Under the pieces are notes generated by a model that searched no databases, was not told where the DNA came from, and saw only the letters and a list, made by a program, of their open reading frames with translations. Of a stretch of 64,000 bases of DNA, positions 17,091-51,867 are shown piece after piece. How positions within the stretch are numbered: the first letter of the stretch is position 1; each line of letters starts with the position of its first letter. The stretch comes from Saururus chinensis (Eukaryota > Streptophyta > Magnoliopsida > Piperales > Saururaceae), in contig CP141145.1 of assembly GCA_035235625.1 (NCBI GenBank), positions 24,368,563-24,432,562 on the forward strand, given 5' to 3'. A program made the translations under genes and the position numbers.

Positions 17091-17413
17091 TAATTTATTT
17101 AATATTTATTTTTTAAATGTATAAATTATAATAAATAAATATTAAATATTAAAAAAACTTTGTAAATATAAGGAAAAATATTTAAATAATATTAAAAAAA
17201 TATTTACTGAAATAAAACACTTTAGGAAATATTTTCTAAAGTGATGTTGTTTTTGTCTATGTAGGTGTCAGCCAAGCACTGACGCCTATGTGGTTTTTTA
17301 TAAAAAAATTATTGATTTCATCCTTTGGAAGGACAAAATCATCTTTAAGTTGTTTTCGTCCTTCCAAATGATGAAATCCCAACCCTTATCATACTCTAAC
17401 CTAGGCCCCAGTG

Positions 17414-17440
17414 GATTTCGTCCTTCTAAAGGACGAAATC
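17414..17440. repeat. perfect 12-bp-arm palindrome in MULE subterminal region
   Basis: Arms GATTTCGTCCTT / AAGGACGAAATC with a 3-nt CTA loop. Related half-sites (GATTTCGTCCTTCTAAA-like) recur at 17310-17370, 17450-17475, 42610-42735 and 45930-46090, that is, just inside the TIRs of both MULEs. Confidence 0.85.
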
Positions 17441-19589
17441 AACTTAAGCTGATTTCGTTCTTCTAAATGGCAAAATCCGCCCTACCTATCACACTCATCC
17501 GTTTTGTGTCACCCAGTTTTCCCCTTTTGTGTGCGTCGTTCTGCCATCTGCCGCAATCTCCTTCGCTAAAATGCCCAAATCTACCCACTACGATCTGTCG
17601 TTCGCCCAAATACAACTTCGAATAGATGTTGCACCACCCATTTCGCCCCTTTCATGTGCGCTATTCTGCCATCCACTGCAATCCCTTACACTAAAATGCC
17701 CAAATCCGCCTGTCGCAATCTGTCGTTTGCCCTGATCAAATAGGTGTTGCACTAGCTCTCTCAAGTGAGGAGTTTTTTTACTACAGAACTTTGAGTCTAA
17801 TTTATCTGGAAGATACGGTTTTTCTATTGGGAGGAAATATGGATGCTTGTAGTGCATTTTATTTAGATTACTATTTTTTCTTATTCATAAAGCCAATTCT
17901 GCAAGAGAAGTGAAATTGAAGATTTCCCGGATTTTCAACCGATGCATTTTACTGGAATTGGGATTTTGTTGAAGAATTTGGTTTTATAATTGTATGGAAT
18001 CTATTACTATAAAAGCCATTGATAAAAGGCCGTTGACACTTTCAAGTCCTGCATGAGTTGTAGCTTGTAAACTAAGTCTAATGTGGAAATAATTTTCTTC
18101 CTGGGAGTGGCTAATGAGAGGAACAAAAGGCAACAGTTCTTAAACAACAAATGGTTAATGACAGGATAAATGACTATAAGAAGGCAATGATACCCACCAC
18201 ATGATACCATTCTTTTTTTTTTCTTGTTTGATACAAGACCTAATATCATCAGCCACACATATGTTCTTAGTTCTTAGTTATTATAACTCATTAAAAAAAT
18301 TCTCACTTCTTGTAATTTTTTTTATAAAACTCTTGCATATTACATCTTCTTAACAGAAAAAGAATATTTATACTCAATTATTTTTGTACTACAGGCTTTA
18401 TGGAACCTCTGATTAGATTAGAAAGGTAGGTCCAATGACAATGTAAGCTTTATTTTTTCTTATTTAATTATAAGTGGTATAAGACCTATAAATATAAAAA
18501 ATAAATTTAAAAATATCAATATCTTTCGCAAAAGTGTAAGACTTAACAACCAATTTTATCATTGCATCCAAGTTAAAAAAAGTATAATATAGAAATTTCT
18601 TAACATAAATATGTGTATTTTGTGGTCTGCAATGTCTATTCTATTTAAAAATTGGTTTGACATGACTGCTAGATTTGTTGCTTTATTGCTTATATATTTG
18701 TATAGAATATTTTATGTTTCCTTATATGTGAGTAGTGGTTGTCATTCTTGAGATTTTTAAGTGATAGATTAATCTCATGTTTCGTTAAGTAAAGTAATTA
18801 TTTTGAAGTAATTGATTAATGTATTATTTCTGTAATTTATTGTTTATAAATTAAGTGAATAAAGATAGCAGAAGAAATAGTTAATTTTATGCTTCACTAT
18901 GAAAGATGCATAGATAGATTATTAATTAAGAAACTATATATTTATGATGACCTTGAGATGTAAGTAGCTAGTAAAGTTGGGTGGGATCGAAGGAGATGAA
19001 AAATTATTATAAAATATAATATTCTGACATTTGGATGGAGATCAGGACTAATATGTATAAATGATGATGCATCATTAAGTTTTATGTTTCACCATTCGTC
19101 TCATATAATTTGTTTCGAGCTATTTCTCAAAAAAGAGGCCTGAGTGCCTAGTAAAAGGCGCATTAGTTTACACAAGTGCTCTAAAAGAAATGTGAACAAT
19201 GGAAGGCATATACAAATGCTAGTGGATGATGAAGAAGAAGGAAATTTATCGATGACAATAGCTTAAAATGAACGTTATAAGTCGTCTACACCTATTGATG
19301 ATGGAAGTGGACCTAATTGGAGGTAAGATTTATTAAGATGTGAATCCTGTTTGAATTGTATAATTGTTGATGAAAATTATGATGTTTAATTATGAATTTT
19401 GTGCGTGATGTGGAAGGTACACATCACATGCACATGAGCCATTTAGCCTTCAAATGTCTCAAGGTGGTGCATGGTATGGAACTCAAAGCTCGATGGCCAT
19501 TCATTACCCCTACACAGGTATTGGACATACCAATGCTGGACCATCCAATACAACGTGAAATACATATTTATAAATAAATATAACATTTT

Positions 19590-21580
19590 TAGGTTTTAAA
19601 GAAGGGTTTAAGTCATATGGAATTGAATACATATGCGATGTTCATGATGAATATGTTGATGTAAATGATCAGGTCAATGAAGGTAAAGATAATATTAATG
19701 AAGCAAGTGAAGAAGAGTATGACATGAACGAAGAAGGTGTTAGAGGTGAAAAAAGCGCTCAACATATAGTTGACGACGAGGGAGATGATGCGGTAGGCAA
19801 TGCAATTGCCACAAATGACATGAATGTGGATAATGAAGAGTCGTCATACTATGATGAGGAGGGGCCACTCTATGCACATATCACAAATGAGGAGATAGAT
19901 GTGGCACTTAATTGTGTCATGGATATGGACCAACAAAATGAAGAAGAGTTATATGTTGGGCGCATCTTTGAGAATAAAGAGGCATTTGTCACAACCTTGA
20001 GGGAGTTTTCAATTAAGAATCATGTCCAGTACAAGGTTTTATACACAAATATGCCAGAGTATATAGTGAAGTGCATTGATAGTACTTGCCCTTAGAGAGT
20101 TCATGGATTAATGAAGAAAGGGTACTTTAAATTGAAGACATATGGAGGTGATCTCGGAATGCCCAGCTTAGCACTCATTATAGGCAGTGTAGTGCATCAT
20201 TTGTTTCAAATGTCATAATACTTGCCATAAAGGAATATGGCCATAAAGGTCATTTATTGGGATTGGGTTGAATCATACAATTTATTGCCAGTGTACCTCA
20301 GGGCAATATAAGATGTGAATCCCTACACCTTCTACAATTTGGAGTATGATGAAGTAATTGGTGAAGATGGTAGCTTGTATAGGAGATTTAAGCAAATGTT
20401 TTGGGCATTTGGGCCGTCTATAGTTGAGTTTTGACATCGCATCCCGTTGATTGGTGTAGGTGACACTCACTTGTATGGCTAGTATCCCGGAACTCTTATG
20501 GCTGCAACGGCTACAAACGAAAATAATAGGTTATTTCCTTTAGCATTTGGGATAGTAGCAAAGGAAGATTAGGAAAATTGAAAATGGTTCTTAAGTTAAC
20601 TGAGGGATAATGTACTTATGGGTATGACAAATGTCATAGTTATTTCAAATCGACATAAGTGGCTTCAGAAGGCCGTGCTAGAGATTCTTCTTGAGCCATA
20701 CTGCTACCATCACTACTGCATCCACCACATAAAGGCAAATTTTAAGGAGTTTAAAAATGATACACTTAAGGACTTGATTGGGGTAGCAACCTATGCATTA
20801 ATAGTAGAACAGTTTAATGTTAAAATGGACTTGATTGGCCAGGAGAGTCCCAAGGCAAAACATCTCCTCTTAGGAGAAAGATTGCATCCTGCACAGTGGT
20901 CTCTTGTTCATGATCATTTTAGAAGATTTTGCATAATGACTACAAATATAGATGGAACTTTAAATAGCGTCTTGAAGGGGGCACAAAGATTACCCATGCA
21001 GGCTTTAGTGTCAGCTACTTTTTATTGGGTAGTAAAATTCTTTGTGAAACGATCTTCTGCTTCAGATGCCATGGCCACCCCATATACTCCCAGAGTTGAA
21101 GGGTTAATTAGAAAACAAGTAAGAGGAATTGGGGAGTATATAATTAACAGGATCAACTACAACGAGTACGAAGTGATGTTAATGCGTGGCCGAAAGGTTG
21201 TGGTGAATATGGCTCTTCATACTTGTACATGCAATCTCCCTCAAGTCTATTTGTATCCTTGGTCGCACCTTATTGCCGTGTGGGGAAAGCGGTGGGAGCC
21301 TATACAAGCATAACTTTATTACACATCGATCGCTTATAGAAATGTGTACTCTGCATAATTCTATTCTCCTCATGGTCGGGAGTTTTGGGAGAGAGATATA
21401 CCTTATGTGTTATTCCTTCCAAGAGCAACAAGGCAACTTAGTCGCCTAGGATTTATTCGCAAGAATACAATGGACCGTGTGACCATGGAGAAAGATGGTA
21501 AAGTAGGGTATAAATGTGGGAAGTGCAAACAAATTGGGCATAATAGTAAATCCTGTAAAAATCCTCCTGTTAATTGGTAA
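19590..21580 (+). pseudogene. MURA (Mutator transposase) pseudogene
   Basis: Cut-and-paste transposase remnant. In order: an acidic N-terminal region (19650-19950); a MuDR DNA-binding domain (ELYVGRIFENKEAFV to EYIVKCIDSTCP, ~19950-20092); the MULE catalytic domain with first acidic box VGDTHLYG (~20455) and FPLAFGIVAKED (~20545); then ISNRHKW (~20645), where the second catalytic Asp of the usual SDRH box reads Asn. The third acidic residue region (VEQFNVKMDLI, ~20805) is kept. The SWIM finger (CTCNLPQ...PWSHLIAV, ~21225) has Trp where the third Cys should be. A C-terminal knuckle CGKCKQIGHNSKSCK (~21515) is intact. In-frame stops (for example TAG at ~20093 after CIDSTCP) make it inactive. 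Confidence 0.85.
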
Positions 21581-21657
21581 ACATACAATTAGTCTTTTTA
21601 TTTATTCTCTATTTTAGATATGATTATATGTTCCTAACGATCTTAATTCTCCGTAGA

Positions 21658-23757
21658 TCACATGGATCATATAGAGTCTTTTTATGGGCTAGGCTCTATT
21701 GATAAGACGGTACTTGTCTAGCAGGAGTCGCATAGGTTAACTTCTATTTAGCAATGAGAGGTATTCTAACTATTCATGAAATTTATTTAATTTTTTAGAC
21801 TATATTTAAATTTATAATATTTAAATTTATTATAGGACCCCAGATGCCTTGAGTACACTGAACATTTTCGATATCTCTAACAGTGGCCCATAGATGAGTG
21901 CATTCTATTGTTTATCGAATGAGAAGGATTTGGACATTTCATTCATATACATTCGTCTCGATAGACCTTTATTGACAAATCTTGTCAAGAGACAGAGGAG
22001 GGAGACACAAATATTTCACCTACCTTATGGGGAGATGCCCATCACTCCATGGATGTGACAATTCTTTTAGGACTTCGCATAAATGGAGAGGTTGTGACAG
22101 GCACGACGGGAGGAGGTCATTTGGATTTATTAGTCAAACTCCTTGGCAGAGCTCCTCCTACTATAACAATGCGTGGTAGCCGAATGAACCTCTGATGACT
22201 CTTAGATGAGTTTCATGAGATCCCAGTAGATGCCATAGAGATAGGAATCAAGTAGCATACACGAGCATATTTATTACATTTACTTGGGGCTACGATATTT
22301 GCAGATAACATGAGTAGCCATGTACATGTTGCATATCTCTCCCTTCTTACGGACTTCGACATGGAGGGCACATGCACAGGGCAGTGCCACTCTTGCATTT
22401 TTATACCGAGAGTTAGGGAAAGCATGATAGGCCATGACCTCGGGGATTGCAAGTTGTTTGACCCTTCTTCAGGTAAATGAATTCGTTAAAGTTAATATTT
22501 TTTACATGCATAATTACTTTATATTTTTTTAATAATTTTTATCATATTTTGTGACATAGCTATGATCATGGAAGTATTTACACATCGGCCGACCAAGTAT
22601 TAAGATGGGTCACGTAGTCGAGGGTGCTCCATTAGGAGCGAGGTAGGGTATTTTTATTTTTAACACTTAATTTTTTAGCACAGTTTTATTTGGATATGTT
22701 GAACTTATGTTTTGAATTTGGCTCCATAAGGTGGAATGTTCGGAGGAGAAAAATCAAAAATCCACATGGAATCCTCCGTTTGTATAGAGGAGAGTTAGAC
22801 CACCAGCGGCCTTATCAGGTAATTTCATTTCATTATCAAATTTCATAAAATGATTATAAGATATGTAAGGTCATTAAAACTTAATTATCTTTACAAAATG
22901 TGTAGGTAATTTGGTTGTCGTACTTGCCAGAGGTTTTGGCTGAGTTACCTCCTCTCAGTACCAAGGGTCTAGATGTGTGGCTCTCGCAAACACCACTCAT
23001 CTGTTTTGAGATTGTTGAGATGTACGTGCCAGATTGTGTGATGCTCTAGTTTAACTTAAGGCAAGAGGTCCCTCCTCATACCGTAGAGTTTGTCCATTAC
23101 ATTACTTGACAAGGCTTCCATATTACCGATTGGGCTCTATATCATGCAGCATATATCGCTCTATGGGATGATAGGAGAGCCACTATAATCCAAGGGGAGA
23201 TGGCTGCAACATCGCAAGATGTTCGTAGCCCGTATATGTAGTGATATTTACCCATTACGTGGCGATATATTTTACCGTGTGATGATGTAGAAGAGATAAC
23301 ATATTAGCCTAGGGGTGCGTCTAAGGCAGTTTTGGTAAGTATATCATAATTAATTTCCTAATAATATTTTCTTATTTCCCATTTGTTATTTATTTAACTT
23401 GCATTTTAATTTTTATATACCTTGGATTAGTGCGATAGACACTTGCCAATTTGACTAACGTCATTTACACACTTATACATTGAGTGAGGTTTTATTAGCA
23501 TCATGTCATTCGATGATTGGCAACATCATGATGTCCTTAGTAGCTTGCCCCTCCTTCAGTCGGTGATTACAGATGCTCATGGACATTATTATACTGACAA
23601 GGCAGCTCAGACACAACCGAGGCATAATCCATTCCTTAATATTCCATCTTCATCTATAGCACCTGGCTCTCCTCCATGTTCATCAATTCCAATTGCTCCA
23701 CATGTACCTTACCCCCAGTTAGATCTGATAGTATATTATAAATGACATTGAGCAACT
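21658..23757 (+). pseudogene. plant mobile domain (PMD) gene carried by MULE 1
   Basis: Second gene of the element, directly after MURA on the same strand. It starts MDHIESFYGLGSIDKTVL, followed by exons separated by GT-AG-like introns (donors near 21767, 22473, 22642, 22820, 23333). PMD signatures: WGDAHHSMDVTILLGLRING with EVVTGT (~22030-22110), TRAYLLHLLGATIFADN (~22260), YLSLLTDFDMEG (~22340), then RWNVRRRKIKNPH and LICFEIVEMYVPD-type blocks (~22735-23040). The PMD family (PF10536) includes host MAIN/MAIL1 proteins and transposon-borne forms; its biochemical activity is not settled. Several in-frame stops make this copy a pseudogene. The last segment (23503-23745) is the variable C-terminal tail. 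Confidence 0.8.
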
Positions 23758-23868
23758 CGTCTTGAAATCATTTGGTTCCTTCCCTTAGAACCGTACTTGA
23801 GAGTTTTCTACCTCATACGGCTCCGCAGTCTTTTGGCGTTCCACTCCTATTCCTAATCCTAAATGGAA
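23752..23868 (-). other. organelle-like group II intron domain V fragment
   Basis: On the minus strand, GAGCCGTATGAGG...AAGTACGGTTC (about 23789-23824) has the near-invariant shape of a group II intron domain V: an 8-bp GAGCCGTA/TACGGTTC lower stem and a short upper hairpin. It is followed by TAAGGGAAGGAACC. Such introns sit in plant mitochondrial and plastid genes, so this is probably a short nuclear insertion of organelle DNA (NUMT or NUPT), lodged where MULE 1 homology stops and directly before an LTR. Source gene not identified. Confidence 0.6.
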
Positions 23869-24844
23869 TGTGACGACGTAGGGATCCATATGTAAACATG
23901 TAATCGAATATACATAATAGAATTATAAACATACAATATGTAATTCATATCCTATCTCAATGATTAATCATTCAACAAATCAAATATATGTGCAGAAATA
24001 ATAAAACATAACTTGAATGTAACTCTAATGCATAGTATGCAAGAGTCATATAAATATTGACGTGGTAGACCACAAATTTGGACATCCACTTTATGGGATT
24101 TAGAGGTCTCCAACCAAAAAAATAGCCCCTTCATGACATCGGGCACTCTCGATTTAAGTAAAAACGCCTCTTAAACGACTCAAATCGAACTTCCAATGAC
24201 TTAGATCAAGAAAATAAAGTTTGAAAAGTGTACGAGAGAAAACTGGAAAAACTGAAACCCCTCATGATTATTTATAGGCTGTATGAGGCAGTTTGGACAC
24301 CATGCACCACACATACAATGCGTGATACAGGTCTAGGCCATGTGGTGCAAATGTGTAGGGTGGTAGCGTTGCATGTGCATGGGCCCCAACCTTGGCACAA
24401 CGCATGTTATGTGTGCATCGAGTGTCACATTGACGTGTTAGTTGGCATCAATGCTAATGCCAATCTGACACAATAAATCTTCTTTTTCTATATTTTTTAA
24501 AAATCTAAAATCTTTAAACGCGTGTAACTTTCTCTCCCGGACTCCGACCACATGTTCTTGGTACCATTGGGCTTGTATCGATGAGCCCTATAAAACTAGA
24601 CTCCGCATAAGTAGGGTATGTCATACTTTTCAAGTGGATCCTACCCATGTGACACGTTTCTCAAAGCTATAACTTTCAACCCCGGTGTCCGATTTGTGTG
24701 GTTTAAGACTCGTTTCTCCTAGCTCTAACACACCTATGCGAAAACTCTCCAAATATTTGCCTCTAAATAATTAAAAATAGCTACAAAACCAAAAATAACT
24801 TTATTAGAAGCATAAAATCATGTAAAAAATTCACGGTCGTTACA
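23869..24844 (-). repeat. solo LTR-like repeat (976 bp)
   Basis: Ends TGTGACGACG (left) and GGTCGTTACA (right). On the minus strand it resembles the 1.7-kb LTR at 50813-52515: TGTAACGACC start, a shared middle with a GATACAAGCCC-like block, and a TATA box CCTATAAATAA at 24268-24277. No target duplication was found, so one flank may be lost. No coding sequence. Confidence 0.6.
24268..24277 (-). promoter_or_regulatory. LTR TATA box (minus strand)
   Basis: CCTATAAATAA on the minus strand, in the same relative place as in the related LTR at 50813-52515. Confidence 0.45.
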
Positions 24845-24884
24845 CTATAATCAAATAATGTTGCCTAGAGTACTTTCCCTTTTT

Positions 24885-25960
24885 CTTTCTATCTTACTCC
24901 CTAAACCTTTTAGGTTTATCATAAAAAAAAATGTTAGAAACATTATTAGGACAATTATCGGCAAAATGACCTAAAATTTTGTATTCAAAACATTTCATGT
25001 TCTTTTTATCATGTTTGTTATGTTTTCCATCTCTAGTCTCCTCATATTTCTTGCCTGTAGTTTCTCCTTTTTCGTTAACCCAAAAATTCTGAGTTTTCAC
25101 TAACTTCTTAAAAAATTTAGTCAATAGAACCATTTGTACATCTTCACTTTTACTTTTTTCATATTCCTCTAGGATTTTTAAGTCTTTAGGCTTATTGTTC
25201 TGTTTCTTAGTTGTTTTTAACTTATATTTTTCCTTTGATTTTTCAAAAAACTCTTTCTTGTTTTTATCATACTCCTTGTATTTCAAACATTTTTAAGTTC
25301 CCTGTGAGTTCCTCAATGTCTAAGGTAAATTTTCTTTGATTTATTAATCACAACAACTTTAATCTTGAATTTTGATGATGAGGACCTTAAAATATTTTTA
25401 ACCAAAGGTAATCTAGGATTGACTCTCTTAGTTGATCACAAGTATTGACTATGTTAGAAATTTTTGCATAGTACTTAGAAATTGATTCCTTATCACTCAT
25501 CAATATGTTGTCAAACTCTAAGGTGAATGTTTGTAACCTAGACACCTTTACAGCTCCGATTCCCTCAATGTGTTTTACAAGTTTTTACCATACAACCTTT
25601 ATGGATGTACAATTTAAAATTAACCTATGTTGAGATTTTCGTATAACATTAAACAATGCACTTAGGACTTTACTATTGTAGTTAGTAAGTTTTGTATCAT
25701 TTTCATACTATTCACTCTCATCCTTTATAATCATATTCCCCTATTTGTCTTAAGTTATGGGTAGATTCTAACCTTTAATCACCGCTTTTCAAGCACTGTC
25801 ATTAAAGCCTTCATCTATTTCTTTCAATAGAAGAAATTTTGACCATCAAATAAATGTGGTCAATTCATGAGATTTCTCAAGTTCCTATATTCAATCATAT
25901 TGTTGTTTGAACCACCATTAAGATTAAAACCAAGAAAAACAAGCATATAACTAAATTTAA
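24885..25960 (-). pseudogene. copia gag remnant (minus strand)
   Basis: Best part (24894-25286) gives a lysine-rich stretch and a zinc-knuckle-like block MKCFEYKILGHFADNCPNN typical of copia Gag C-termini. Upstream on the minus strand to about 25960 the frame is decayed but still gag-like in order. Fossil with several breaks; no pol follows on its 3' side because the LTR at 23869-24844 cuts it off. Confidence 0.7.
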
Positions 25961-27470
25961 TCGAGCAATACAATAGATTTATCTACTCTAAAGTAAGACA
26001 AGCACAACTTAGGGCAAAATCAACAAGACCACAAACAATTCTAACCAAAAAAATAAGTAAATCTTGCACAAATAAAAAAGAAAATCTGAAGCAAACTAGG
26101 AAATTAAGCAAAGTGACACAGCTTACTTGAGATAGGCATGCAAATCTACATAAATATCATGAAAAACTCAAAATATTAAATTAAAATCCTCAATTACTAA
26201 TTGAGAATTTAATATCCATCTAAATGACTTAGCCAATCAACAAATAGTTCCTAAAACTAGTACTTCGAATAAAGAAGAATTAAGAGTTTTGGCCTCTATG
26301 CGAAGGAAGTCGTTTACTTAGTGAAAATAAGAAAAACTTAAAATCTAAGTGCATTCATGGTCAATCCATCAAATCAAAAAATTTCAAGCATGTAAAAGAC
26401 ATAAGGATTTTCACTTGGAAAATGACCTAAATTATAGTAAAAAACTGCGATGACTTTTCTTTGTACTAATTCAATGCATTAGTAAGCAAGACCTCTTATA
26501 AGATTAAAAAAAAGCTACCTCCTCTTTTGAGGCTCTAACATAAAGTTCTTTTGTTTAGAATTTCTCTTTATTTGTTGTTGGCCTTCAAGTCTTCTCCTCT
26601 AAGTCTTATTATTTCATCTCTCTCTGTTTCTAGTTCCTCGTTCAAACTTCATTTTAATTGTTGATTTATATTGAGACTCTTTAATCACTCATTGATAAAG
26701 ATTTAGTTGCTCCTCCTCAAACTTGTGTGTGTTTGTTGTGCTCTTGTTCTCTCTCTCTCTGTCTCATGTCTCCCTCTCCATGAAGAATTTTCATATATAA
26801 ATCAATAATGGATCAAGGAAAATTTAGGCAAAAAGTTTTTCCTTTTTCCTTAACTTTAATAATAACTTCTTTCTCTTCAATTTCATTCATACCTAGCATT
26901 ATAATGTTTTAAGTCGGTTAGGGTAAAAAAATATAAAGTAGGAAATGATATCTTTCCAGAATTCTTAAGCTAAGTAACTTAAGGTTCAAGCGATCTATCA
27001 TTTCAACTAGAGATCGATCAATCACTGTCTCTGTCTATACAAAATTGCCAATCGATCGATCTATTGAGTAGGCGATCAATTGATGTTCACCTCGGTTTAA
27101 ATATGAAAAATAATCATTAAATGATCAATCTATGCAAATCCTGTGTTCAAAAGTGATCGATCATTTATAAACAATTTTCTAGATTTTGACCTAGAATATC
27201 CTAAAACTTCCAAAATTATTCTAGTAAATTATTTAGACTTAATTCTAAGTGATTTGTGTATATCATGCCTTCAATTCTTCAACACTCAATGTAGTCTTCA
27301 TCCTTAAACTTTTAGTGTCTACTCTTATTTTTCAAGTTTTTCAATTCTAAACCTGACTTGACTACAACTAAATATACTTAAAGATTAAAATTATACATGA
27401 AGCTTCAACATTGTTTGATCATCGAAATCAGGTAATTACATTACATATGACCTCATATATTCTTATATGT
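25961..27470 (-). mobile_element. probable leader and LTR of the minus-strand copia fragment
   Basis: Lies directly 5' of the gag remnant. AT-rich; contains a CT-rich tract (26745-26780) and a cluster of GATC/ATCGATCG words (26990-27170). A resembling GATC-rich segment occurs in opposite orientation at 13150-13290. LTR limits were not resolved. Confidence 0.4.
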
Positions 27471-27479
27471 AGAACCTTT

Positions 27480-28690
27480 CTAACAAGTATTGTGGAGATA
27501 AAAAAAGAAGAAGCTGGAATTAGAAGAAAGAGAAATAATTAATGAATTTCCCAATGTTTTTCCAAGGGGACTACTGCGTTCACCATCAAGGAGGGAAGTA
27601 AATTTTGCAATAGATTTGACCACTCCAAGAGCCTCATCAATTTCCAAGGCACTTAATAGGATGACCACGATTGAACTAAAGGAGTTGAAAATGCAACTAC
27701 ATGACTTATTGGATAAGGGATTCATTAGGCCCCATGTTTCTCCTTAGGGTGTACCTACTTTGTTTATGAAGAAAGGCAAGTCAATGAGACTATGTATTAA
27801 TTACAAAATGATCAATCAAGTCACTATAAAAAATAAGTGCACTCCCTAAAATAGATGACTTATTTGACCTTTTACAATTAACAAAAGTGTTTTCTAGAAT
27901 TCTTAAGATATGGATACATCAACTAAGGATAAAGGAGGAAGACATCTCAAAAACCTTCTTTCCTACTAGGTATGAACGTTAAAAGTATATAGTAATGCCT
28001 TTTGTGTTTGCTAATGTCATGGACATTATGGACAAGATTTATAAACTTCACTTGGACCAATTTGTCATTGTGTTTGTAGATGATATTTTGATATACTCAC
28101 CCATAGTAAAGGAATATCATAATCATCTTAGAGAAGAACTCAATATTTTATAGATGATATTTTTATATACTCACCCATAGTAAAGAAACATCAAAATCAT
28201 CTTAGGGAAGTATTCAATATTCTAAGCTAAGTAAATGTGATTTTTAGATGAAGAGAATTAACTTTTTGGGTCATGTAATTTTAAAAAAAGGAGTATGGAT
28301 ACTCTTTGAAAGTTAAGGTTGTCATAAATTGGGAGAGACCAAAGAATCTACTAGAGGTAAGAAGTTTTTTTAGGGTTGACAGGTTATTAACGAAGGTTCA
28401 TTAAAAGTTTCTCTTAAATTACATTGCTCATGACAAAGGCGACAAGAAAGAATGTCAAATTTGCATAAAACTAAGAGTGAACATAGTTTATAAAAATTGA
28501 AAGAAAAACTTATGAGTGCTCTAATATTAACATTACCCAGAGGAGATGAATGCTATATACTTTTTAGTGGTGCTTTAAGAAAAAGATTGAGTTGTATGTT
28601 GGTGCAAAATGGGAAAATGGTTGCTTATGCTTCAAAATAATTACAAACCCATGAGCAGAATTTGGAAGTCCGTTAACATTGCTTAAAATT
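27480..28690 (+). pseudogene. Ty3/gypsy pol remnant (RT to RNase H)
   Basis: Plus-strand translation gives gypsy RT blocks: LKMQLHDLLDKGFIRPHVS, then CINYKMINQVTIKNK, the FVIVFVDDILIYS catalytic box region (~28065-28095) and an RNase H-like stretch ending in KMVAYASK (~28620-28640). No LTRs recognised. Old, heavily broken fossil. Confidence 0.75.
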
Positions 28691-29630
28691 TTAAATTTTA
28701 CTTAAGAATTTTTTATTTCAAAATTAAGCAAAGGAAAGTTAATCTACAAGTATACTTCATTTTAAAGCATACACAAGTATAATATATAAAAAGTTAACAA
28801 ACTCATTGTATGATAAGGAAGTGATTTTAACTTATGTGGTCTAATGGGGATTAAGTATGATAAATGAATAATCAAGAGCAAACACAATGCACAAGAGAGA
28901 TTTATACTGCGCTTTGAATGCTGAGAATCAAACGACACCTACATCCACACTCTCAAAGTACTAAATCCAAGGCACCTCAATTTTTTATTAAGTAAGGGTT
29001 TCATACTTACAATCAGCATCTATAGCATATAGTTTTCTTTGGCTCACCATTAACTGTTATACAACCTTGAGTAAATCTACACTCACCTAGAGTTACTCCT
29101 AACTCTCCACAGGTTTCTTACTAAGTATTTACTCCACTTTCTAAAAAGTAACAAAGGGTTTAGATCACTTTCACTCTTTATAAGGATTAAATATCTTACA
29201 CCTTTGCTAAAGTCGTGCTTTAAGCATTCAGTCTTCCATTGTCCATCCTTGAATTTAAATCGGTGCTTAAAATTGTTGAAGCTATTTGGACAGATGAACA
29301 TGGCTTTCTAAAAGATATACCTATTTGATCTAAGAAACTATTATCGAGTAGTCTTGAATTTCTTCCTAGTATTTATTAAAGAAATCTTATGGACCCTTTC
29401 TAAGAGAGGAAAATTAACAAAGACATACTAAGGTTTCAAACGATTTTTTTATGGAATATAAAACCAAGTCTAAGAGGTCTCTAATTCTTTCCTAAGATCT
29501 CGATTGAAAGTCTTTTAAACTTTGATATTTTAAGGGAAAGATAGCTCGGGATACTCTTGTGATCTTATCTTCATGATTTAACTATAATAACCCAAGTCAA
29601 GAGCATGATTTCAACTTCACCCAAGAGAGG

Positions 29631-29640
29631 CTATTTATAG
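29631..29640 (-). promoter_or_regulatory. LTR TATA box (minus strand)
   Basis: CTATAAATAG on the minus strand, about 500 bp into the LTR, with the 24-bp tandem array starting about 20 bp upstream of it. Confidence 0.6.
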
Positions 29641-29660
29641 ATGAATAATTCCATGTCAAG

Positions 29661-29756
29661 TTTATGTTTGGGTCTTAATTTGAGTTTATATTTGGGTACT
29701 AGTTTAAGTCTATGTTTGGGTCTTAGTTTGAGTCTATGTTTGGGTTTTAGTTTAGG
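29661..29756 (-). repeat. 24-bp tandem repeat, 4 units, upstream of LTR TATA box
   Basis: Units (plus-strand reading) TTTATGTTTGGGTCTTAATT..., with words TATGTTTGGGTCTTAGTTTG repeated at exact 24-bp steps (29661, 29685, 29709, 29733). Confidence 0.9.
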
Positions 29757-30140
29757 TATATGCATATTTTTCTTACATAAGCTGGATGAGTTTTTTTTCT
29801 AACCAGCCTATGAGCCCAATTACTTGTCTTTTAGGCCAAACATACTAGATTAAGGCGACCTTGATCAATTCTTAGTCTTTTTGTCTTGATGCTTGTCCCT
29901 TGTCCACCTTGGGTTTGAATTTTTGTCTCTTATTTTCTTCATAAGCTTCTTGAAGTTTGTTCCTTAACTACTTTGGGCTTGAGCCTTTGTCACTTGTTTT
30001 CATCATGAGCTTCTTCAAGAATGCTTGAGCCTTTGTGTTAGAGTGTATCTCTTGAAGTCTTCATATTAATCTTACACTAACTCAATAACCCTTATATAAT
30101 TTGTCACAAAATTGGACAATAACTACGATAACACTAGCAA

Positions 30141-30151
30141 TCTCCCCCTTT
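30141..30151 (-). other. polypurine tract of minus-strand copia
   Basis: AAAGGGGGAGA on the minus strand, directly before the LTR. A second similar G-rich string (TAGGGGGAGTTTTGG) lies at about 30226-30242. Confidence 0.65.
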
Positions 30152-30584
30152 GTCATTTTTGTGACAAAACACAATTAAAATTCACAAACCCATTACATAT
30201 ATGAGCCTAAGCATATTAAACATTGACCAAAACTCCCCCTATCCACTTGACTTTAATCTCCCTCTTTGTGTATGCCAAGAACTTTATGTTTACCTGTAAA
30301 GCTTGAAAAGACACACATATGGTGGTATATATTTCTACTCCCCTTTTTTAAGAAAAAATGACCAATAGAGTCACAAAAACATAGTGACATATGGGATATT
30401 TTAGAACTTGAAGCAGGGCATAAAAAACATGCTTTAAATTTATTCAAATGGCATAAGGAAGCATGAGATTATTAACCTTTTACCCTAGTACAAAAGTTAG
30501 TAGTAAAGATGCATGATACAAATCCAAAATATCATGCAAACAATTAAGCACAAATTAACTAAGTATCCACATGACTATCTTTTC
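30152..30584 (-). other. internal 3' region of minus-strand copia, non-coding
   Basis: AT-rich DNA with PPT-like strings; no recognisable protein domain. The element's coding part is not seen further right. Confidence 0.4.
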
Positions 30585-30765
30585 TTAAATTTTTATGTGC
30601 GAGTCCTACACACATAACACACTTTTTAATAAATAATATTTTACATTTTTTCCTATATTAAACAACTCTAGTTTCTTGTATTTTTTACGCTATTGAAAAA
30701 TTCCCAACAAGCTATATCAAACCAGACTCACCACTAAACTAGTCATAAAAATGAATAACATGTTC
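30585..30765. repeat. fragment of the long-inverted-repeat family
   Basis: Words GTCCTACACACATAACACAC, a TTTTTCCTATATTA stretch and CCACTAAACTAGTCATAAA match, in order, the right arm of the inverted-repeat element at 46419-47500 (47315-47420). Confidence 0.55.
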
Positions 30766-34258: not shown

Positions 34259-34888
34259 TCATTGTGATTCTTTTTCTTGCATCTTGCGATTGGAAGAAAT
34301 AAAAGTGTCCTTAGACATATCACATGCCCCAGCTGGATCATATCTGTCCTCAAATGCATTATATCTGCGGTATCCTGACTTTTCTCTATGTGTTCTGCCA
34401 CTATATCTTTCTCCACTTGTTTGGCTATGTTCAAGTCTATCCCTATCTATATCATTTCTAAGATGTTTAGATCTGTCAGATGATACTGAATCTTCCCTTT
34501 CATATCTATTCTTTAATCCCAAATTACCCAAGTCACTTTTAGGTATATGCCTTCCCCCTGCATAGCGATGACGTTCATAACTGTGAGGGCTCCTCGACCT
34601 AATTCGTCTGTCTTTACCAATATTTGTCCCACTTGTGTGGTGATTTAGAATATTATTCTCATCTGGAAAGGACATACTATTTTTATAAGATGGATATGAG
34701 TGCTTTCCAATTGCTTCAGAAGGGTCATGTGAAGTGCATTTCAACTTATCCATATCTGGGGACACATCACCAGAACTAATAGGCGCAAGTAGCAAGTTTT
34801 CAGACCCAACGGCTCCCTTAATAAAGCATCCAATTCCTCCTGCCTCCTTAATTTCTTCCATGTGCTCATCAATAATATCACGAATTAC
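34259..34888 (-). CDS. SNRNP48: SNRNP48 exon 4 (C-terminal, RS/RD-rich)
   Basis: Residues 505-713, VIRDIIDEHMEEIKEAGGIG and an Arg/Ser/Asp-rich tail (IRSRSPHSYERHRY, SSDRSKHLRNDIDRDRLEHS), ending KMQEKESQ then TGA. Acceptor TTTTTATCTCAG. Another reading frame continues open past this stop to a GTAAGC donor-like site at 34083, so an alternative C-terminus is possible but unproven. Confidence 0.8.
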   Translation of the reverse strand, partial: VIRDIIDEHMEEIKEAGGIGCFIKGAVGSENLLLAPISSGDVSPDMDKLKCTSHDPSEAIGKHSYPSYKNSMSFPDENNILNHHTSGTNIGKDRRIRSRSPHSYERHRYAGGRHIPKSDLGNLGLKNRYEREDSVSSDRSKHLRNDIDRDRLEHSQTSGERYSGRTHREKSGYRRYNAFEDRYDPAGACDMSKDTFISSNRKMQEKESQ

Positions 34889-37800: not shown

Positions 37801-40800
37801 GATCTCCTATTAAAACTTTCTATGCCTTCTTTTCTCCCCAATAATTTTCTCTTCCTGTCTATCCATGCATGTGAGGCTGTCAACTCGGAGTTGAACCACT
37901 GGATTTTGTCAAGATTGATGCATTGTTGCTGCCACCATTTCTATCGCTTGAGTTTATTATGCCAATTTTTTAGAGCTAAAGCCATAATTTATTCATTGAA
38001 ATGGTGCAAGATATGAGGAAGATGAAAGTGAAGTCCAAGTGTTGGCAACTGATGTAGGCTAGTTGAGTTCGGTAACTACTGCTATACTCTGTGTTTAGTC
38101 AGTAGAAGAGTTAGTGTAAGAAAGGAAAATTCTGTCATTGTAATAACTGCTGCTATACTCTGTGTTTAGTCAGTAGAAGAGTTAGTGTAAGGGAGGGTAT
38201 TTCTGTCATTTTCTTTTATATGTCAGAGTTAGTTACACACAGGAGTGGATGGCTATAAATAGGTGGCGGAGGGAAGAGTTAGGCAGTTGATTTTGAAATT
38301 TGAATTTTCCCAGAAAATTGCTGTTTGAAGGCTGCTCATGGATTTGAGCTCGAGCTGTGGATTCAGCTCCATTTTCCCGTAAATTCCATCGTGGATTTGA
38401 AGGCCAGCTTGTGGATTCAACCTTGTAATTCTTCTCTTGTTACAGTAATCAAAGTTTTTACATTATTTTCATACTGAGTTCCATTAGCAACACTGGTGTA
38501 ACCAAACTCTAGAGAAGTCCCATTGAAGAATGAACAGTTAGCAAGAGGAGTTGGTCCAAGTTTGGATAGTGCAAATGTTTATGAAGCAAAGCATTTGGAA
38601 GCTGACAAAACGGAGCTCAAAGGAGTCCTTGGAAGAATTTCAGGTTTTAATCAGATCAAGTCTCTTGTCACAGTTTCATGGAGAATATCCTGAAGCAAAC
38701 ATGGAGATCATTCTGTATTTAACTCACATTACCCCCCACCGAAGACACATCCTCCACCCCACAACTGATTTGCTCCTACATCTCTCTTTAATTATATGTT
38801 TTGGATGGAAATTCAAGATATGCTCTCGACTTACACCCTAACCTACTTGGAGACACAAGAATTGAACTAATGAAGTGGAACTTGGATATTTATTGCAAGA
38901 GTATCTTGTATAGCAGCATCTGCCGACATAAATTAGAAGGATGTTGCACCTGTATGTACGATTCTGGCTACTCTTTCTTATAATGAGAACTGCTGCCAAC
39001 TTTGACAATCATTTGAGCATGTTACCAATCATGATCCATGTCACATAGAATGCTCATTCTCAAAGCTACACCCTCAAATAGTATTCATCATATTGTTGCT
39101 TACTCCACATTAGAAGTCACACTGATTAAAATTATCAAATTCATCTCTCCCAATAAACAACCGATACAATCCAATTTGTCTTTGCTATTATTTACTGGCT
39201 AACTTTGCACTCATTTGTCGTGATCATGTCACATTTGTACACGTTGGTAGAACTCTCAAGAGCCCAAAACTTTTTTCTATTCAAATGCTTGTGATCACAC
39301 TCCTTGTATGGTTAGACACCAACCAGAGAGAGAAACCAAAAGCAAATTTAATTAGGTTCAACACGTTCAGATAGAAGGCATAGCGAAAGGGAGGGAGATA
39401 GTAAATCCTCTAGCATTAGTAGAGGGGTGCATAAAGAGAAATGTGTTTCTCACTGTGTAATTCAAGTCTTGCATTTTCAATTATTGTGCAGGTAGACCAT
39501 AGAAGAATACAATACACCATCTACCTACAAAAGGGAATACCAAACCGTAATAACAAAAACTGATGGAGATTTGTGTGAGAAAATGCTGCTATTGAGAAAA
39601 TTGTGAAAGCTCCAGTTAGAAAAACACTTATTTTGATCATTAAGAATGGTTATATATGCTGAGCATGTGCAAAATGCACGTGCACTTTAACTAGGATTAT
39701 ATAACTTCTACAGCAAAATTTCCCTTCAATATAATATAAATTTTTACCAATTATGACCAGAAACTCAACATTTCATTTGAAAACATCAAATGCATAATAG
39801 GCATAATAAGAAACACGTTCATAACAAAAAAAAACATTAAAAACAAAGTTAAACCTGATTCTGAAACCGTTGCCAAAGAAGGCCATCATGCTCAAGTATA
39901 GGCCTATAATCTGCACGATTTCCTCTCTCCTTACTAGCTACTGTTGATATTTGCGAATATTCAGCGAGCCTACATCAAGGCACAAAAGAAGTTCAAAGTA
40001 AAAAACACTATATAATTAGTATTCCTGTTATGCAAGAATCTATTACTATAATTATAAAGGAAAACACAACAACTAGCATATGTATCATCTACAAATAGCT
40101 AATAACGATTAAGTTGGAAAAGTAAAGGCATATGTAAATGCCTCACATCAACTATCATATGTATCATCTACGAATAGCTAATAATGTTTAAGTTAAAAAA
40201 GTAAAGGCATGTGCACATGCCTGTACACATGCCTTAAAATAGTCAATGGAAAAAAATCATAGTTCATTCTGAAAAGTAAAAGACCAAACGCCATTGAACT
40301 TCGTGAAACTATTTTTCTCAAAAAAAAAAGTATTGAAGCATGCTATTTAATCCCAACTTTTTTTCATTTTTAATAAATTTTAAGAAACAAATGCCACCAA
40401 CAAGTCTTGATATTAACTACACAAAAATGCAATACTAATAGAAGTACTCTTTCAAACTAAAGTAACACAAGAATGCAGCAATAGATTTAATTAAGTAACA
40501 AAAAGGTAAAGGTAGAAGAGAACATTTATGACAACCACAATAAAACAGCAGTCAATAAGAGAGAACCATACAACTGCATCTTTGGAAGTTGCCTGCCAAA
40601 ACGTAAGTCTTTGATCTTCTCCTCTAATAATGCCCTCTCGTGCAATGCGGCAATTGCTGCAGCCACGTGAGATACAGAAATCTGTTCAAAACTGCACTTT
40701 CCACTTCTTATTATGTTCTCACCTTCAGTGGAAGCAGTCTTCACAAGCTCTTCATGATCTCCATTTTGACCAACATTGAACTCCAGTGGCTCAGACCTTA

Positions 40801-41860
40801 GATCATTACTCACAGAAGTGACATCAGCTGATCCATTCTGAGTTTGCCTTGACGGAAACAACAGGGAATGTGACCCAGCCTCTAACAAACACTGCTTAAA
40901 CATGTTGATGACAAAAAGCTTCCCATTTGCCTCTCCGTATAAAATAGATATTTGTGAAGCTAACCACGTCAAAACTTGCATTATATGACTAAGATTCAAA
41001 AGATTTTTGGTTCCATTGATTGAATCCACTGACATAGAGGCTTCTAATGAAATTGCCTTCAGACAAAGCTTCAACAATGTAAATATATGATCCCTCATTG
41101 GACCATCTATAATAATCCCATAATGAGGTGAATTTAGGATAATCCAATTTCTAATGTCAGTTTTTTCCGCCATCCCTAAACACGACAATACTCTGAGAAC
41201 AATATAAGAATATGACAAGGGATAGTCACTCCAGGAATCAACTTCATCTTTCATGGCACACAGTTCTGAGGGAAGAATAGGAAAATACTTAATTTTTCGA
41301 TGACATTTATGCATAAAGTTCTCACATTCAGCAGCTAAAATGCCGGGAAGCAAGAATGTCTTCTCTTGACATGCAGAGCTCACAACACCAGGGCAATTCC
41401 TGTAATAAAAATTTGAACCGAAAGCTCCAAATTCATCAAGAGAAAAGCAGAGTTCAACATCCAAATCTTGCAGTGGCTTCACAAATCTTTTCTCAGATAC
41501 AGCCTTGAGGGAATTTGGATAACGAAGGCCGTCGAGAATAGAGAGCTCCACAGTGGCTGGAGAGGATGAACAAACAAGAGAATGGCGGAAGAGGGACTCG
41601 GGAGGCATCCTGTGACGGGAATCAAAAGGGCAAAAGGCGCAATCAGTGTGAGAATCCAGATTTTCTGTCAAGTGCAGAAACTCACAGACTGATTTGAAAG
41701 ATTTCTCGGCAAGATTAATAGATTCTTCAACAACCGAAATTGTGGCCTGGAGATTAAGACTGGGTGGGGTTGGAAAAGAGCGGCTAGAATTTAAATTTGC
41801 CTCTGAATTTGGGATATTGGCATTGAAAGAGGGGTGACCAAATTGGTAAGGAGGATCCAT
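34259..41860 (-). CDS. SNRNP48: U11/U12 small nuclear ribonucleoprotein 48-kDa protein
   Basis: Four coding exons joined at GT-AG sites: 41860-40572, 39969-39855, 35451-35344 and 34888-34259, giving about 713 aa, near the length I recall for plant orthologues. Residues 77-97 form the family-defining CHHC zinc finger (C77, H83, H93, C97; CPFDSRHRMPPESLFRHSLVC) with exact C-x5-H-x9-H-x3-C spacing. In the known protein this finger reads the 5' splice site of U12-type introns within the U11/U12 di-snRNP of the minor spliceosome in the nucleus. Conserved plant blocks follow: EYSQISTVASKERGNRADYR (exon 2), EERDYKRRRMSYRGKK (exon 3) and RDIIDEHMEEIKEAGGIGC (exon 4), then an Arg/Ser/Asp-rich tail. 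The start is ATG at 41860; an in-frame TGA lies four codons upstream. No break in the frame. Confidence 0.9.
35344..35451 (-). CDS. SNRNP48: SNRNP48 exon 3
   Basis: 108 bp, residues 469-504, DSIKNKTREELLAEERDYKR then RRMSYRGKKGKRTTIQ, strongly basic. Acceptor ATGCTTAG, donor CAG/GTCTAT. Separated from exon 2 by a 4.4-kb intron. Confidence 0.85.
35893..36422. mobile_element. 530-bp MITE in SNRNP48 intron 2
   Basis: Terminal inverted repeats ACCAATGTTTTAAAAACC (left) and the reverse of ACCAATGTTTTAATACCC (right), each followed by a GCCCGGCC/CGGCCTCGGCC GC-rich block. Flanked by TTGT(A) on both sides. Contains two tandem repeats of a CAGTTTGCCTACCAG block (36300-36365) and a repeated TTTGTGTGGAGATGCC word (36145-36190). 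No coding capacity. Confidence 0.75.
36903..37112. mobile_element. LINE (RTE-like) or SINE 3' fragment in SNRNP48 intron 2
   Basis: Contains CCCAACAATTTGGGGTCGG, the CCATTCTAGCCTATTTTGTG block, ATCCATAGAGAT and TCCAGGTTTGGGACCC, a combination I associate with 3' ends of plant RTE-type LINEs. Family call from memory of the consensus only. Confidence 0.4.
38040..38492 (+). repeat. LTR with remnant primer-binding site in SNRNP48 intron 2
   Basis: Begins TGTTGGCAACTG and ends TTAGCAACA, giving TGTTG...CAACA tips. A TATA box CTATAAATAGG lies at 38253-38263. Directly after the end comes TGGTGTAACCAAACTC, a degenerate match to an initiator-Met primer-binding site. A 66-bp direct repeat (38075-38139, 38145-38210) lies in its U3 part. 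No internal coding region is recognised, so it is a truncated element. Confidence 0.55.
38253..38263 (+). promoter_or_regulatory. LTR TATA box in intron 2
   Basis: CTATAAATAGG, antisense to the host gene SNRNP48. Confidence 0.5.
39855..39969 (-). CDS. SNRNP48: SNRNP48 exon 2
   Basis: 115 bp, residues 430-468, LAEYSQISTVASKERGNRAD then YRPILEHDGLLWQRFQNQ. Acceptor TTGATGTAG, donor CAG/GTTTAA. Intron 1 is about 600 bp. Confidence 0.85.
40071..40221. repeat. 72-bp direct repeat in SNRNP48 intron 1
   Basis: Two copies (40071-40142 and 40150-40221) sharing ATATGTATCATCTAC, AATAGCTAATAA and AAGTAAAGGCAT. Confidence 0.85.
40572..41860 (-). CDS. SNRNP48: SNRNP48 exon 1
   Basis: Residues 1-430, from MDPPYQFGHPSF to FGRQLPKMQL, including the CHHC finger. 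The donor is GTATGG at 40571 downward; phase 2. The frame reads on into the intron for some 45 bases before a stop, so the donor is chosen because it joins in frame to exon 2 at a conserved LPKMQL-LAEYSQ junction. Confidence 0.85.
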
Positions 41861-42478
41861 TTCATGCAATCACCTGTCAGACCAAAGCATGAAACATTCA
41901 GCGCAAGCAAATTACGCGGTCCACTCAACCAACTATGCAGAATCAAATCTTACGAATATAAACCCACAAAACTAATCAGCCATAGAACTACCAAAAAAAG
42001 TCGCAGAAAAGGCGTAGGAACAATAATCAGCAGACACAAGTCCTAAAATTCAGTCTGTTGGCAGGTTTATCCATCAAATGAAATGAAACCCATTTCTCTT
42101 CATGTGAAGATAACGGGGGAAAGTTGGAGAAATCTTGGTTACCCTCAAACTACTACATGGGCGGCAAATGGAGCTCACCCCAGTTCTAGTTCAAGCAAAC
42201 CGGTGCATGCTTTGATGGCCGGAGATTCAATTGACACCGCGAAGTCGACGCGAGCGCGCGGGTCGAGCATGCAGGGCGGCCTTGCAGCACAGCGGCAGGT
42301 AGGGCTTAGCTAGGATTCCTCGGGCTGCCGGGCGACAGAGATCGGAGTGAATTCGGCAGCGACGGGGACGACGCACTTGGGCCTGCGGTAGGGGTGTAAA
42401 TGGGCCGGGCCTGGTTGTCCAGGCCGCCCATGGGCCAGCAGCCCCGGGCCCGCCCGCGGCTCCTTAGGTTATAAATTA
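41861..42478 (-). promoter_or_regulatory. SNRNP48 5' UTR and promoter region
   Basis: About 620 bp between the start codon and the edge of MULE 2. The far part (42225-42470) is GC-rich with CpG-dense stretches (GACGCGAGCGCGCGGG). A TCTGACAG/GTGATT acceptor-like site just upstream of the ATG could mark a 5' UTR intron. No clear TATA box found. Confidence 0.4.
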
Positions 42479-43688
42479 GGAAAAATGAATTAAATAATAA
42501 TTTTAAAAAATATATTTACCAAACTAACTTATTTTTAAAAATATTTCTTCTCAAAGCAGTGTTGGTACATGGCTTTTTTTAAAAAAATTATGACATACAA
42601 AATCAAGTTTAAGTTGATTTCGTTCTTCTAAAGAACAAAATCGGGTTAACACAAATAAGTTGAAGGACAAAATCAGCTTGGGGCGCATGCAAGTTTTAGA
42701 AGGTAGTTGATTTTGTCATTCTAAAGGACGAAATCCACCTTTTATACCTGCAGCCATCTCAACCCTTTGCCATTTCGCCCAAAGACGTTGTCGTTGTGCC
42801 CTTGTTCCGAATCCACAACTGTCGTTGTCCCTTTGAAGCCCAAATCCTCCGCTCTCTCCTTTTCTCTCCCTGGGCTCTGCTCCTAAACTCCAAGACCCAA
42901 CGCTGATCGGAAAACTCCCCAGGCTCTTCTCCTAAACTCTAGGTAATCATTCTTGTGTTTTCATATTTGTATGATGTTGTGATACAAGAGTGGGTTGCTA
43001 TTTGTGCTTCTTATTTGGTGTTGGGCATGCGGTGTGTTTGAGATTGGGATATTTCTTTAATTTGTATGAAAATATTTGTTGTCTTCCTTAGATAAGAGAA
43101 TAAATATGAGGAGAAGTACTATTTTTTATTATTACTCGTTGATATATGTGGCAACGTCTAGCAAATAAGGAATTTAGCATCTTTATTGATTGTGAATTTG
43201 TTTGATTTCCTCTTTGGTGAAAGAGAATCTTAGAATTAATAATTTATTGTTTATGAATTAAGTGAATAGGTATGGTAGAAGAAATGCTTAGTTTTTTACT
43301 GCACTATGACGGACAAATAGAAGGATTATTAATTAAAAAACTGTCTATATATGATGAATTTGAGATACAAGTAGCCAACAAAGTTTGGTGGGATTGAAGA
43401 AGATGGAAAATCATTATAAAATGTGTTATTCATACATATGGATCGAATTCAAGACAAATATGTATAAATGATGATGCTTCAATGAGTTTTATGCTTCACC
43501 AGTTGAGGCACATATTATATTTCAACTTATTTCTTGAAAAAGAGACCTGAGTGCCTAGTGAAAGACGAAATAGTTCACACAGGAGCTCTGAAAGAAATGT
43601 GAATAATAAAAAGCATATGTAGATGCCAATGGATGATGAAGAAGAAAGAAATTTATCCATAACAATAGCTTCAAATGAACGTAATAGG

Positions 43689-44005
43689 TGTTGTGCCCGA
43701 TGTGGGCACAAACAGTACCTTGAACTCTCACGCAGGGAAAAGGAAGAGAGGAAGAAGAAAGGGGAGAAGTTTTGAATTTCAATTGCATAAACCAACACAA
43801 GGGAGGGAACGACTCTCTTATGGGGAGTCACGCCCTCTCACCTCGGGAAATATGCCGCTAATGGGCCAGCTACTCCATGGTCCGCTAGCGCTTCTAACAC
43901 AATTACTAGTCCAATACATATGCAAATACTAATCAAAGACAAAGGAAAATAACCTAATGTACTCAAATAAAAGGTAAATGAAGAGTCTGATGAACATGCA
44001 CAACA
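43689..44005. repeat. 317-bp solo LTR inserted in MULE 2
   Basis: Ends TGTTGTGCCC and TGCACAACA (inverted tips TGTTGTGC/GCACAACA), flanked by a perfect 5-bp duplication ATAGG (43684-43688, 44006-44010). The uninterrupted paralogous site is present in MULE 1 near 19285, which confirms the insertion. A TRIM-type element is an alternative. Confidence 0.8.
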
Positions 44006-44267
44006 ATAGGTCGCTTGCCCCTATTGATGATGGAAGTGGACCTAATTGGAGGTAAGGTTTATTAAGTTGTGAATCTTGTTTGAATCTTATAATTATCAAT
44101 AAAATATAGGACGTTAAATTTTGAATTTTATGTGTAATATGGAAGGTAGAAAAGTTTGATGCTAAAATAGACTTGATCAGTCAAGATAATTTACATGTAT
44201 AATTTTTTGTAGGTAAATGAATTCGTAACTTCAAATATTTTTTTGCACGTATAATTCCTTAGTTTGC

Positions 44268-45590
44268 TCATGGGAGCATTTACACGTCGCTCGACTAAGT
44301 ATTGAGATGGGTCACTTAGTCGAGGGTGCTCCATTAGGAGCGAGGTAGGGTATATTTATTATTAACACTTAAATTTTTGTAACAAGGTTTTATTTGCATA
44401 TGCTGAACTCATTTTTTAAATTTAACTCCTTAAGGTGGAATGTTCGGAAAAGGAAAACTAAAAATCCACAAGGAGTTAGACCACCAACGGCCATATCAGG
44501 TAATTTTATTTTATAATAAAAAAATTTACAATGATTATAAGATATGTAAGGTTATTTAAACTTAATTATCTTTATATATTGTATAGGTTATTTGGTAGTT
44601 GTACTCATCGGAAGTATTGGTTGTGTTACCTCCTGTATGCACCCACGGTCGAGATGTGTGGCTATCGCGAATGCCACTAATATGTTACGAGATTATAGAG
44701 ATGTATGTGCCGGATCGTGTGATGCTCTAGTTTAACCTGGAGCAAGTGGTCCCACCTTTTACCGTCGAGTTTGTCCATCGCATCACTCGACAGGGCCGCC
44801 ATATTACTGACCGGGCTATACATCATGCAACATATATCGCTCGATGGGATGATATGAGAGCCACTGTTATCGGAGGGGAGATGGCTACAACATCGCAAGA
44901 TGTTCGTAGTGCATATATGTAGTGGTATTTATTGATTACATGATAATATATTGTATCGCGCGATGATGTAGAGGAGATGACATATTAGCCTAGGGGTGCG
45001 TTTGAGGTTGGTAAGTATAACTCTGTTAATTATATAATATTATTTTCTTATTTCTTAATTCTTATTTATTTGATTATTAATTTATTTTTTTATAGCTTCA
45101 TTTAATGCGACATACGCATGTGCATTTGACTGACACAATTAACATTTGTACTTCGGGTGAGGACTTTTTAGCATCATGTCAGTCGATGCTTAGGGAGCAT
45201 GATGATATCCTTCGTAGCTTGCCACTGCTTCAGTCGGTGATTACGGATATTCATAAACATTATCCTGTCGACGAGGCCGCTTAGACACAGCCAATGCACG
45301 ATTTATTCCCTAATATTCCATCTTCATCAGCAGCACATAGCTCTCCTCCCCATTCATCATTTCAAGTTACTTCACATGTAGCTTATCCTTAGCCAAATCC
45401 AATATGATATTATAGATGACATCGGCCATCTCGTGTTGAGCCATCTATCATTTATGCAGAGCAGGAGCCAGAGCCACATTCAGATCTGGAGCAAGTGGAT
45501 CATGAGGAGTAGGTAAACCATGAGGAGCAAGAAGAGCTCGTACAGCACCGTCGAGGTCAAGGCCAAGGTAGAGGATGTAGGAGATCATGA
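44268..45590 (+). pseudogene. plant mobile domain remnant in MULE 2 (C-terminal half)
   Basis: Aligns exon by exon with the PMD gene of MULE 1 from 22560 on: WEHLHVARLSIEMGHLVEG, a RWNVRKRKTKNPQG block, then ANATNML/VCAGSCD-type decayed blocks, and the tail HDDILRSLPLLQSVITDIHK (~45205). The last stretch is Gln/Glu-rich and ends in a basic RRGQGQGRGCRRS tail (~45550-45585) that MULE 1 has lost. Introns are kept at the same places. Several in-frame stops. Confidence 0.75.
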
Positions 45591-46380
45591 TATTAAGTGT
45601 ATTAGAGTTGTCATATGTTTCTTTTGAACCAAACATTTTATTAACATATTATGTAATATATTTTATAAACATTTATATCTTATGCTTGTTTTTATGTTGT
45701 GTACATGATAGTTGATGTCGATAACTTTAATGTTATAAGTTTGATGTTTTGTGGATGTTAATTTAAACATATGCGTGGAATGTGTGTGGAATGAATGAAT
45801 AGGGACTGGTGCTGTATAATGTGTATGAATTGAATGTATAATGTGTGGATTGATTGTATAATGTGTTGAATGAATGAACAAGGACAAGTGTTAAAGTTAG
45901 TTTAAAATTATTTTTTAAATTTTTTTGCATGATTTCATCCTTTAGAAGGACGATTAGTTCAAAGCTGATTTTGTCCTTTTAGAATCGGCTTAAGCTTGCA
46001 CCGACCATGCTAAATTTTGTGAAGTGTGGTGATTTCGTCATTCTCTGTCCTTTAGAAGGACGAAATTGCTTTAAACCGATTTCATCCTTCTAAATGACGA
46101 AATTATATAATTTTTTTTAAAAAAGCCACGCAATCGTCAGCGCTTGGCTGGTGCCTACGTGGCAAAAACCAACACCACTTTAGAAAATATTTTCCAAAGT
46201 AGGTTGGTTGGTAAATATTTTTTAAAATTATTATTTAAATAATTTTCCCTATAAACTATCAAGAATGCACATGTATTATGTATGCAAATATATATTGATA
46301 AAAAATATCTATCAATTAAATATCTCTTTTCATGTTATTGTTATAATATATATTTTTAAAATGATAATGCTTCTAAATTA

Positions 46381-51790: not shown

Positions 51791-51819
51791 TTTTCTTCCT
51801 CTTCTGGATGTCAAGGATG

Positions 51820-51829: not shown

Positions 51830-51867
51830 AAGAATTGGATAGATGTGAGGTTGACACATGTCAACCC

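Follow-up and report, generated by a model that had tools for sequence, protein, structure and literature searches.

The locus described here raises the question of why a gene matching the plant mobile domain (PMD) should lie inside a transposon, and whether it belonged to that transposon's own gene content. Within the 64,000 nucleotides of Saururus chinensis DNA that we analyzed (the window), two copies of a Mutator-like element (MULE) lie on either side of a host gene, an open frame on the minus strand (40526-41869) that matches the U11-48K CHHC zinc finger (PF05253, E=2e-6) and is, as judged from its sequence, a splicing-factor gene. We consider it very probable that both elements are dead members of a single MuDR-type MULE family of a flowering plant, a host type to which PMD and the plastid fragment described below point, and that their ancestor carried the transposase gene MURA and, in tandem with it, a separate intron-bearing PMD gene. 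Further along the window, long open frames occupy 49109-55500 on the minus strand; by eye, they look like a retrotransposon polyprotein.

Copy 2 (42479-46249, plus strand) is internally deleted and has kept its two ends. Its TIR arms, the right of which lies at 46150-46249 on the minus strand (inner limit approximate), are 82% identical over 90 aligned columns, and it is flanked by a target-site duplication (TSD), TATAAATTA at 42470-42478 and TATAAACTA at 46250-46258 (both plus strand), that is 9 bp long, with eight of nine positions identical and one mismatch, a length within the 8-11 bp range of MULEs. Relative to copy 1, two deletions (about 19420-20803 and 20836-22472 in the coordinates of copy 1, with a 32-bp island in between) removed most of MURA, including the MULE transposase domain region, and the first half of PMD. 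The earlier note had described copy 2 as having lost almost all of MURA, and we infer that copy 2 is an internal-deletion derivative. A 317-bp insert resembling a solo LTR (TGTTG...CAACA; 43689-44005, no strand assigned) lies within this copy and is bordered by ATAGG on each side.

Copy 1 (17172-23760, plus strand), in which MURA and PMD are each broken, aligns to copy 2 through its left TIR and body. When aligned with the right end of copy 2, the left TIR region (17172-17300, plus strand, its inner limit being approximate) shows 77% identity over 208 columns. The TIRs reported in the earlier note as shared are present at the left end of copy 1 and at both ends of copy 2, but the right TIR of copy 1 is missing: the best score for it in 23000-33200 was 34, compared to 111 for the copy's own left TIR and 198 for self-alignment, and a blastn search of the whole window with copy 2 yielded no further right end. 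The full structure of copy 1 was therefore inferred from copy 2. Homology between the copies stops at about 23760, and the final 0.8 kb and right TIR were found nowhere else in the window. At this break is a fragment resembling a plastid group II intron of the ndhA/ndhB type (23766-23880, minus strand, outer limits by eye), whose domain V (RF04357, 23785-23826, minus strand, E=1.5e-6) lies 25 bases past the end of the copy 1 homology; its score of 37.9 bits falls short of the 53 that Rfam sets as gathering score, and at the gathering threshold Rfam returned no matches in the whole window. The fragment is probably plastid DNA in the nucleus, and the right end of copy 1 was probably lost in a rearrangement by which plastid DNA was incorporated.

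The 5′ MURA exon region of copy 1 (18833-19322, plus strand, limits approximate) has no Pfam match of its own; copy 2 retains it in two stretches (43240-43688 and about 44006-44050), with 80-83% identity. Upstream of it, the leader regions that run from the subterminal array to the MURA exon (17480-18833 in copy 1, 42740-43240 in copy 2) align weakly, with a score of 52 compared to a maximum of 46 among 50 shuffles, and because of this weak alignment of the 5′ parts we regard the leaders as different between the copies. The MURA body of copy 1 (19574-21580, plus strand, with in-frame stops) comprises DBD_Tnp_Mut, the MULE domain and a CCHC-like end. Read through with the stops masked, MURA matched PF10551 above the cut-off (E=3e-11). 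A match to PF03108 was below that family's cut-off (E=2.5e-4). The CCHC-like stretch was seen in the translation, Pfam at E up to 0.1 having given no match to a zinc-finger family. After the CCHC-like end, MURA of copy 1 terminates with a stop.

Following MURA, and in the same direction, copy 1 has a six-exon PMD gene with its own ATG. Its exon borders, set from the reading frame and from GT and AG, give exons A (21662-21760, with the ATG start), B (21836-22472; PF10536, E=3.1e-11), C (22560-22642), D (22731-22818), E (22906-23334; PF10536, E=1.2e-14) and F (23421-23760, truncated, acceptor AG lost), all on the plus strand, as are the counterparts in copy 2: exons C (44265-44344, start approximate), D (44435-44499), E (44587-45010; PF10536, E=8.9e-15) and F (45096-45590, up to the likely gene end). 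When joined, with stops masked as X, exons A-E of copy 1 matched PF10536 at E=2.6e-35 and exons C-E of copy 2 at E=4.7e-21, and PMD was the only Pfam match to this second gene at E up to 0.1. The introns, five in copy 1 and three in copy 2, are 75-90 nt long, and three of them are common to the copies, at matching sites and with lengths of 85-90 nt; GT..AG is present in five of the six shared-intron instances, the exception being the E/F intron of copy 1, in which the acceptor AG is lost. These observations agree with the earlier description of copy 1 as carrying MURA and then a multi-exon PMD gene in the same direction, and of copy 2 as keeping both TIRs and the C-terminal half of PMD with introns at matching sites. 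In-frame stops break PMD in each copy and MURA in copy 1. The stop-bearing codons number 8 in frame for PMD exons C-E, compared to 15 and 14 in the shifted frames, and 6 for the MURA 5′ exon, compared to 14 and 14, as expected of former genes. One 111-residue query against viral contigs found no PMD relatives, and the single hit of a PDB search (E=0.23) was not meaningful.

The ends of the elements also share subterminal repeats, as had been claimed. The 10-bp core GGACGAAATC, around which a 27-bp near-palindrome containing CpG sites is formed, has 16 matches in the window at up to one mismatch, compared to 2.51 expected (none of 100 shuffles reached 16), and 14 of the 16 are inside the elements, in the three existing element ends. 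The 27-bp dyad itself, at up to 8 mismatches, was found at nine loci in the window, every one of them in an element end, and at a single locus in ten random 64-kb sequences. Four units form the array of copy 1 (17314-17477), and copy 2 has two units on the left (42616-42735) and three, with up to 8 mismatches, on the right (45931-46104), no strand being assigned to any of the arrays. These arrays may bind the transposase. A literature search by motif letters turned up, among the matches listed and as judged by title, no paper on the 27-bp dyad. The DOWN motif, which is linked to MAIN/MAIL1 targets, had three matches in the window at up to one mismatch, compared to 6.6 expected, and none were in the elements.

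Was PMD, then, part of the family before the two copies separated? The copies are identical at 1411 of 1753 aligned columns and differ at 342 (19.5%; Jukes-Cantor distance 0.226), and neither the 278 bases to the left of copy 2 nor the 451 to its right have a match at copy 1. Since copy 2 has its own TSD and near flanks unrelated to those of copy 1, the two would be independent insertions, with PMD aboard before the split, and the occurrence of PMD at the same place in two separately inserted copies points to a resident gene. A Pack-MULE was ruled out, as copy 1 keeps MURA and the two copies carry the same PMD at the same place. The earlier proposal of PMD as a regular second gene is supported for this kind of MULE by the same place and direction of PMD in two independent copies and by the published survey, in its available text (PMC6446971), but the family itself is represented by two copies only.

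The explanation that we favor is that the ancestral element would have carried MURA and then, in tandem, a separate PMD gene with introns and its own start codon; that MURA would have bound the element ends and mobilized the element, leaving a 9-bp duplication; that copy 2 would have arisen through internal deletion; and that each copy would then have decayed, partly via loss of methylated C. As to what PMD did in such an element, we tentatively judge the most likely role to be that of a retained copy of a host gene of the MAIN/MAIL type that counteracted the silencing of the element by the host, although our confidence in this falls short of even. An anti-silencing role for PMD was published in 2017 as a speculation (PMC5418596) and is repeated in PMC8616336, as far as the available parts of both papers extend.

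A somewhat unlikely alternative is that PMD was an unused passenger, as MULEs readily capture genes. Such a passenger would be expected to leave no mark of constraint, and the comparison between the copies is consistent with this. Divergence amounts to 95 of 563 sites in exons C-E and to 53 of 266 in the intervening introns (p=0.29). With codons that have a gap or stop in either copy left out, dN/dS for exons C-E was 0.43 in frame (bootstrap 0.27-0.67), 0.37 in frame +1 (0.21-0.61) and 0.96 in frame +2; for exon E alone it was 0.35 in frame, and 0.42 and 1.02 in the shifted frames, the intervals of the first two overlapping, and the in-frame values for exon F and for the MURA 5′ exon were 0.80 and 0.64, respectively. 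No codon-position test gave p below 0.11. Because frame +1 is equally low for exons C-E, we rejected dN/dS as evidence of selection, and there is no clear sign in these sequences of selection on PMD between copy 1 and copy 2. The suggestion in the earlier note that PMD aids transposition or counters silencing accordingly drew no support from this comparison, in which exons show no greater conservation than introns and dN/dS in frame is not below that of frame +1. That the copies share stops also suits an unused passenger, and so does the tendency of captured genes to decay, described in the accessible part of PMC13317346. Against it, several MULE groups have PMD in most of their members according to the survey text available to us (PMC6446971), which is more recurrence than a neutral passenger should show, and the stop-masked read-through here still scores 122.7 bits against Pfam.

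It is unlikely, in our estimation, that PMD instead helped transposition in a way comparable to mudrB in maize MuDR, with a part in integration or the assembly of the complex rather than in silencing. MuDR has the same two-gene layout, and mudrB is apparently required for integration according to the available portion of the survey (PMC6446971); however, MAIN and MAIL1, the host relatives of PMD, have roles in silencing and in gene expression, as described in the parts of PMC5418596 and PMC8616336 at hand. The likeness to maize MuDR (mudrA, mudrB) consists in both being two-gene MULEs, the second gene here matching PMD.

The stops themselves bring up a further reading, that the PMD of the ancestor was already broken and that the element spread with transposase supplied in trans. 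Among the 298 aligned codons of PMD exons C-F, 14 are stop-bearing in one or both copies, four of them (44728, 44920, 44986, and 45417) in both, so that PMD may have been broken already in the common ancestor. Three of these four are TAG, and they could have arisen in parallel, from CAG to TAG at methylated CHG sites. Discordant sites make up 36 of 88 in the CG context and 33 of 68 in CHG, compared to 137 of 521 in CHH, and with this excess of CG and CHG discordance a fair explanation is that CAG codons lost methylated C in each copy in parallel. Presumably the shared stops were formerly CAG (glutamine), an assumption that draws in part on the PMD consensus. A per-copy CHG loss of about 0.32 gives 0.10 for loss in both copies; some sharing is thus expected, yet three is above the expectation from few codons. 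Taking these points together we hold it improbable that the ancestor's PMD was already broken.

There is next to no likelihood that a Ty3/Gypsy element nested in the MULE was the source of PMD, which would then not be the MULE's own gene, for although PMD is frequent in Gypsy elements (the available text of PMC9289625 and PMC5418596), it has the same place and shares its introns in the two copies, and the alignment over exons C-F consists of PMD exons and short introns only.

With the favored reading of an ancestral MURA-PMD tandem retained, the family can be set beside known systems. The finding of PMD in a MULE is not new, as the survey (PMC6446971) and PMC5418596 are already in print. The accessible text of the latter has PMD first described with a rice MULE, and PMD-C captured twice by MULEs, in grasses and in Amborella. 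In the survey text at hand, four groups of flowering-plant MULEs (MULE-Monocots, MDR, MUDRAVI2, and MUDR) have PMD (an abbreviation that we take there as plant mobile domain) in most of their members, and it is also listed for MuDR-9_OS and for half of the VANDAL members; the "PMD" of PMC3946583 is, in the portion available, a cloning vector and irrelevant. The copies described here resemble the surveyed groups in being flowering-plant MULEs with TIRs, a TSD of 9 bp (or 9-10 bp, where given) and PMD, but PMD is in sense here and is sometimes or often antisense there, and a separate sense-strand PMD gene is a variant within the published range as that text gives it (PMC6446971). The MULEs with captured PMD-C likewise have PMD beside the MULE transposase; however, as described in the available part of PMC5418596, theirs are fusion proteins, whereas here, as far as the broken copies allow, MURA has a stop and PMD its own ATG and introns. 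According to the excerpts of those papers, PF10536 is also the domain of MAIN and MAIL1, which are host genes.

The anti-silencing protein VANC of VANDAL21/Hiun provides another point of comparison, as it too is encoded by a second gene in a MULE that has arrays of short motifs, the targets of VANC, in its non-coding parts (PMC5735166, in the text available); the dyads at the element ends are somewhat similar to these in placement. The VANC21 sites are 9 bp long and in one orientation, whereas the motif here is a 27-bp near-palindrome, and for VANC both binding and hypomethylation were demonstrated (same text). The PMD protein (or MURA) might have recognized the CpG-containing dyad array and lifted the silencing of its own family, a sequence-specific arrangement convergent with VANC and derived from a captured host silencing protein, but we consider this highly unlikely.

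Two dead copies add no functional evidence on these roles. What the locus offers is a clean layout, namely a PMD gene that is separate, lies on the sense strand and has introns, together with element ends whose motif array can be defined. Given intact relatives, this layout would make a test of the target sequence possible.
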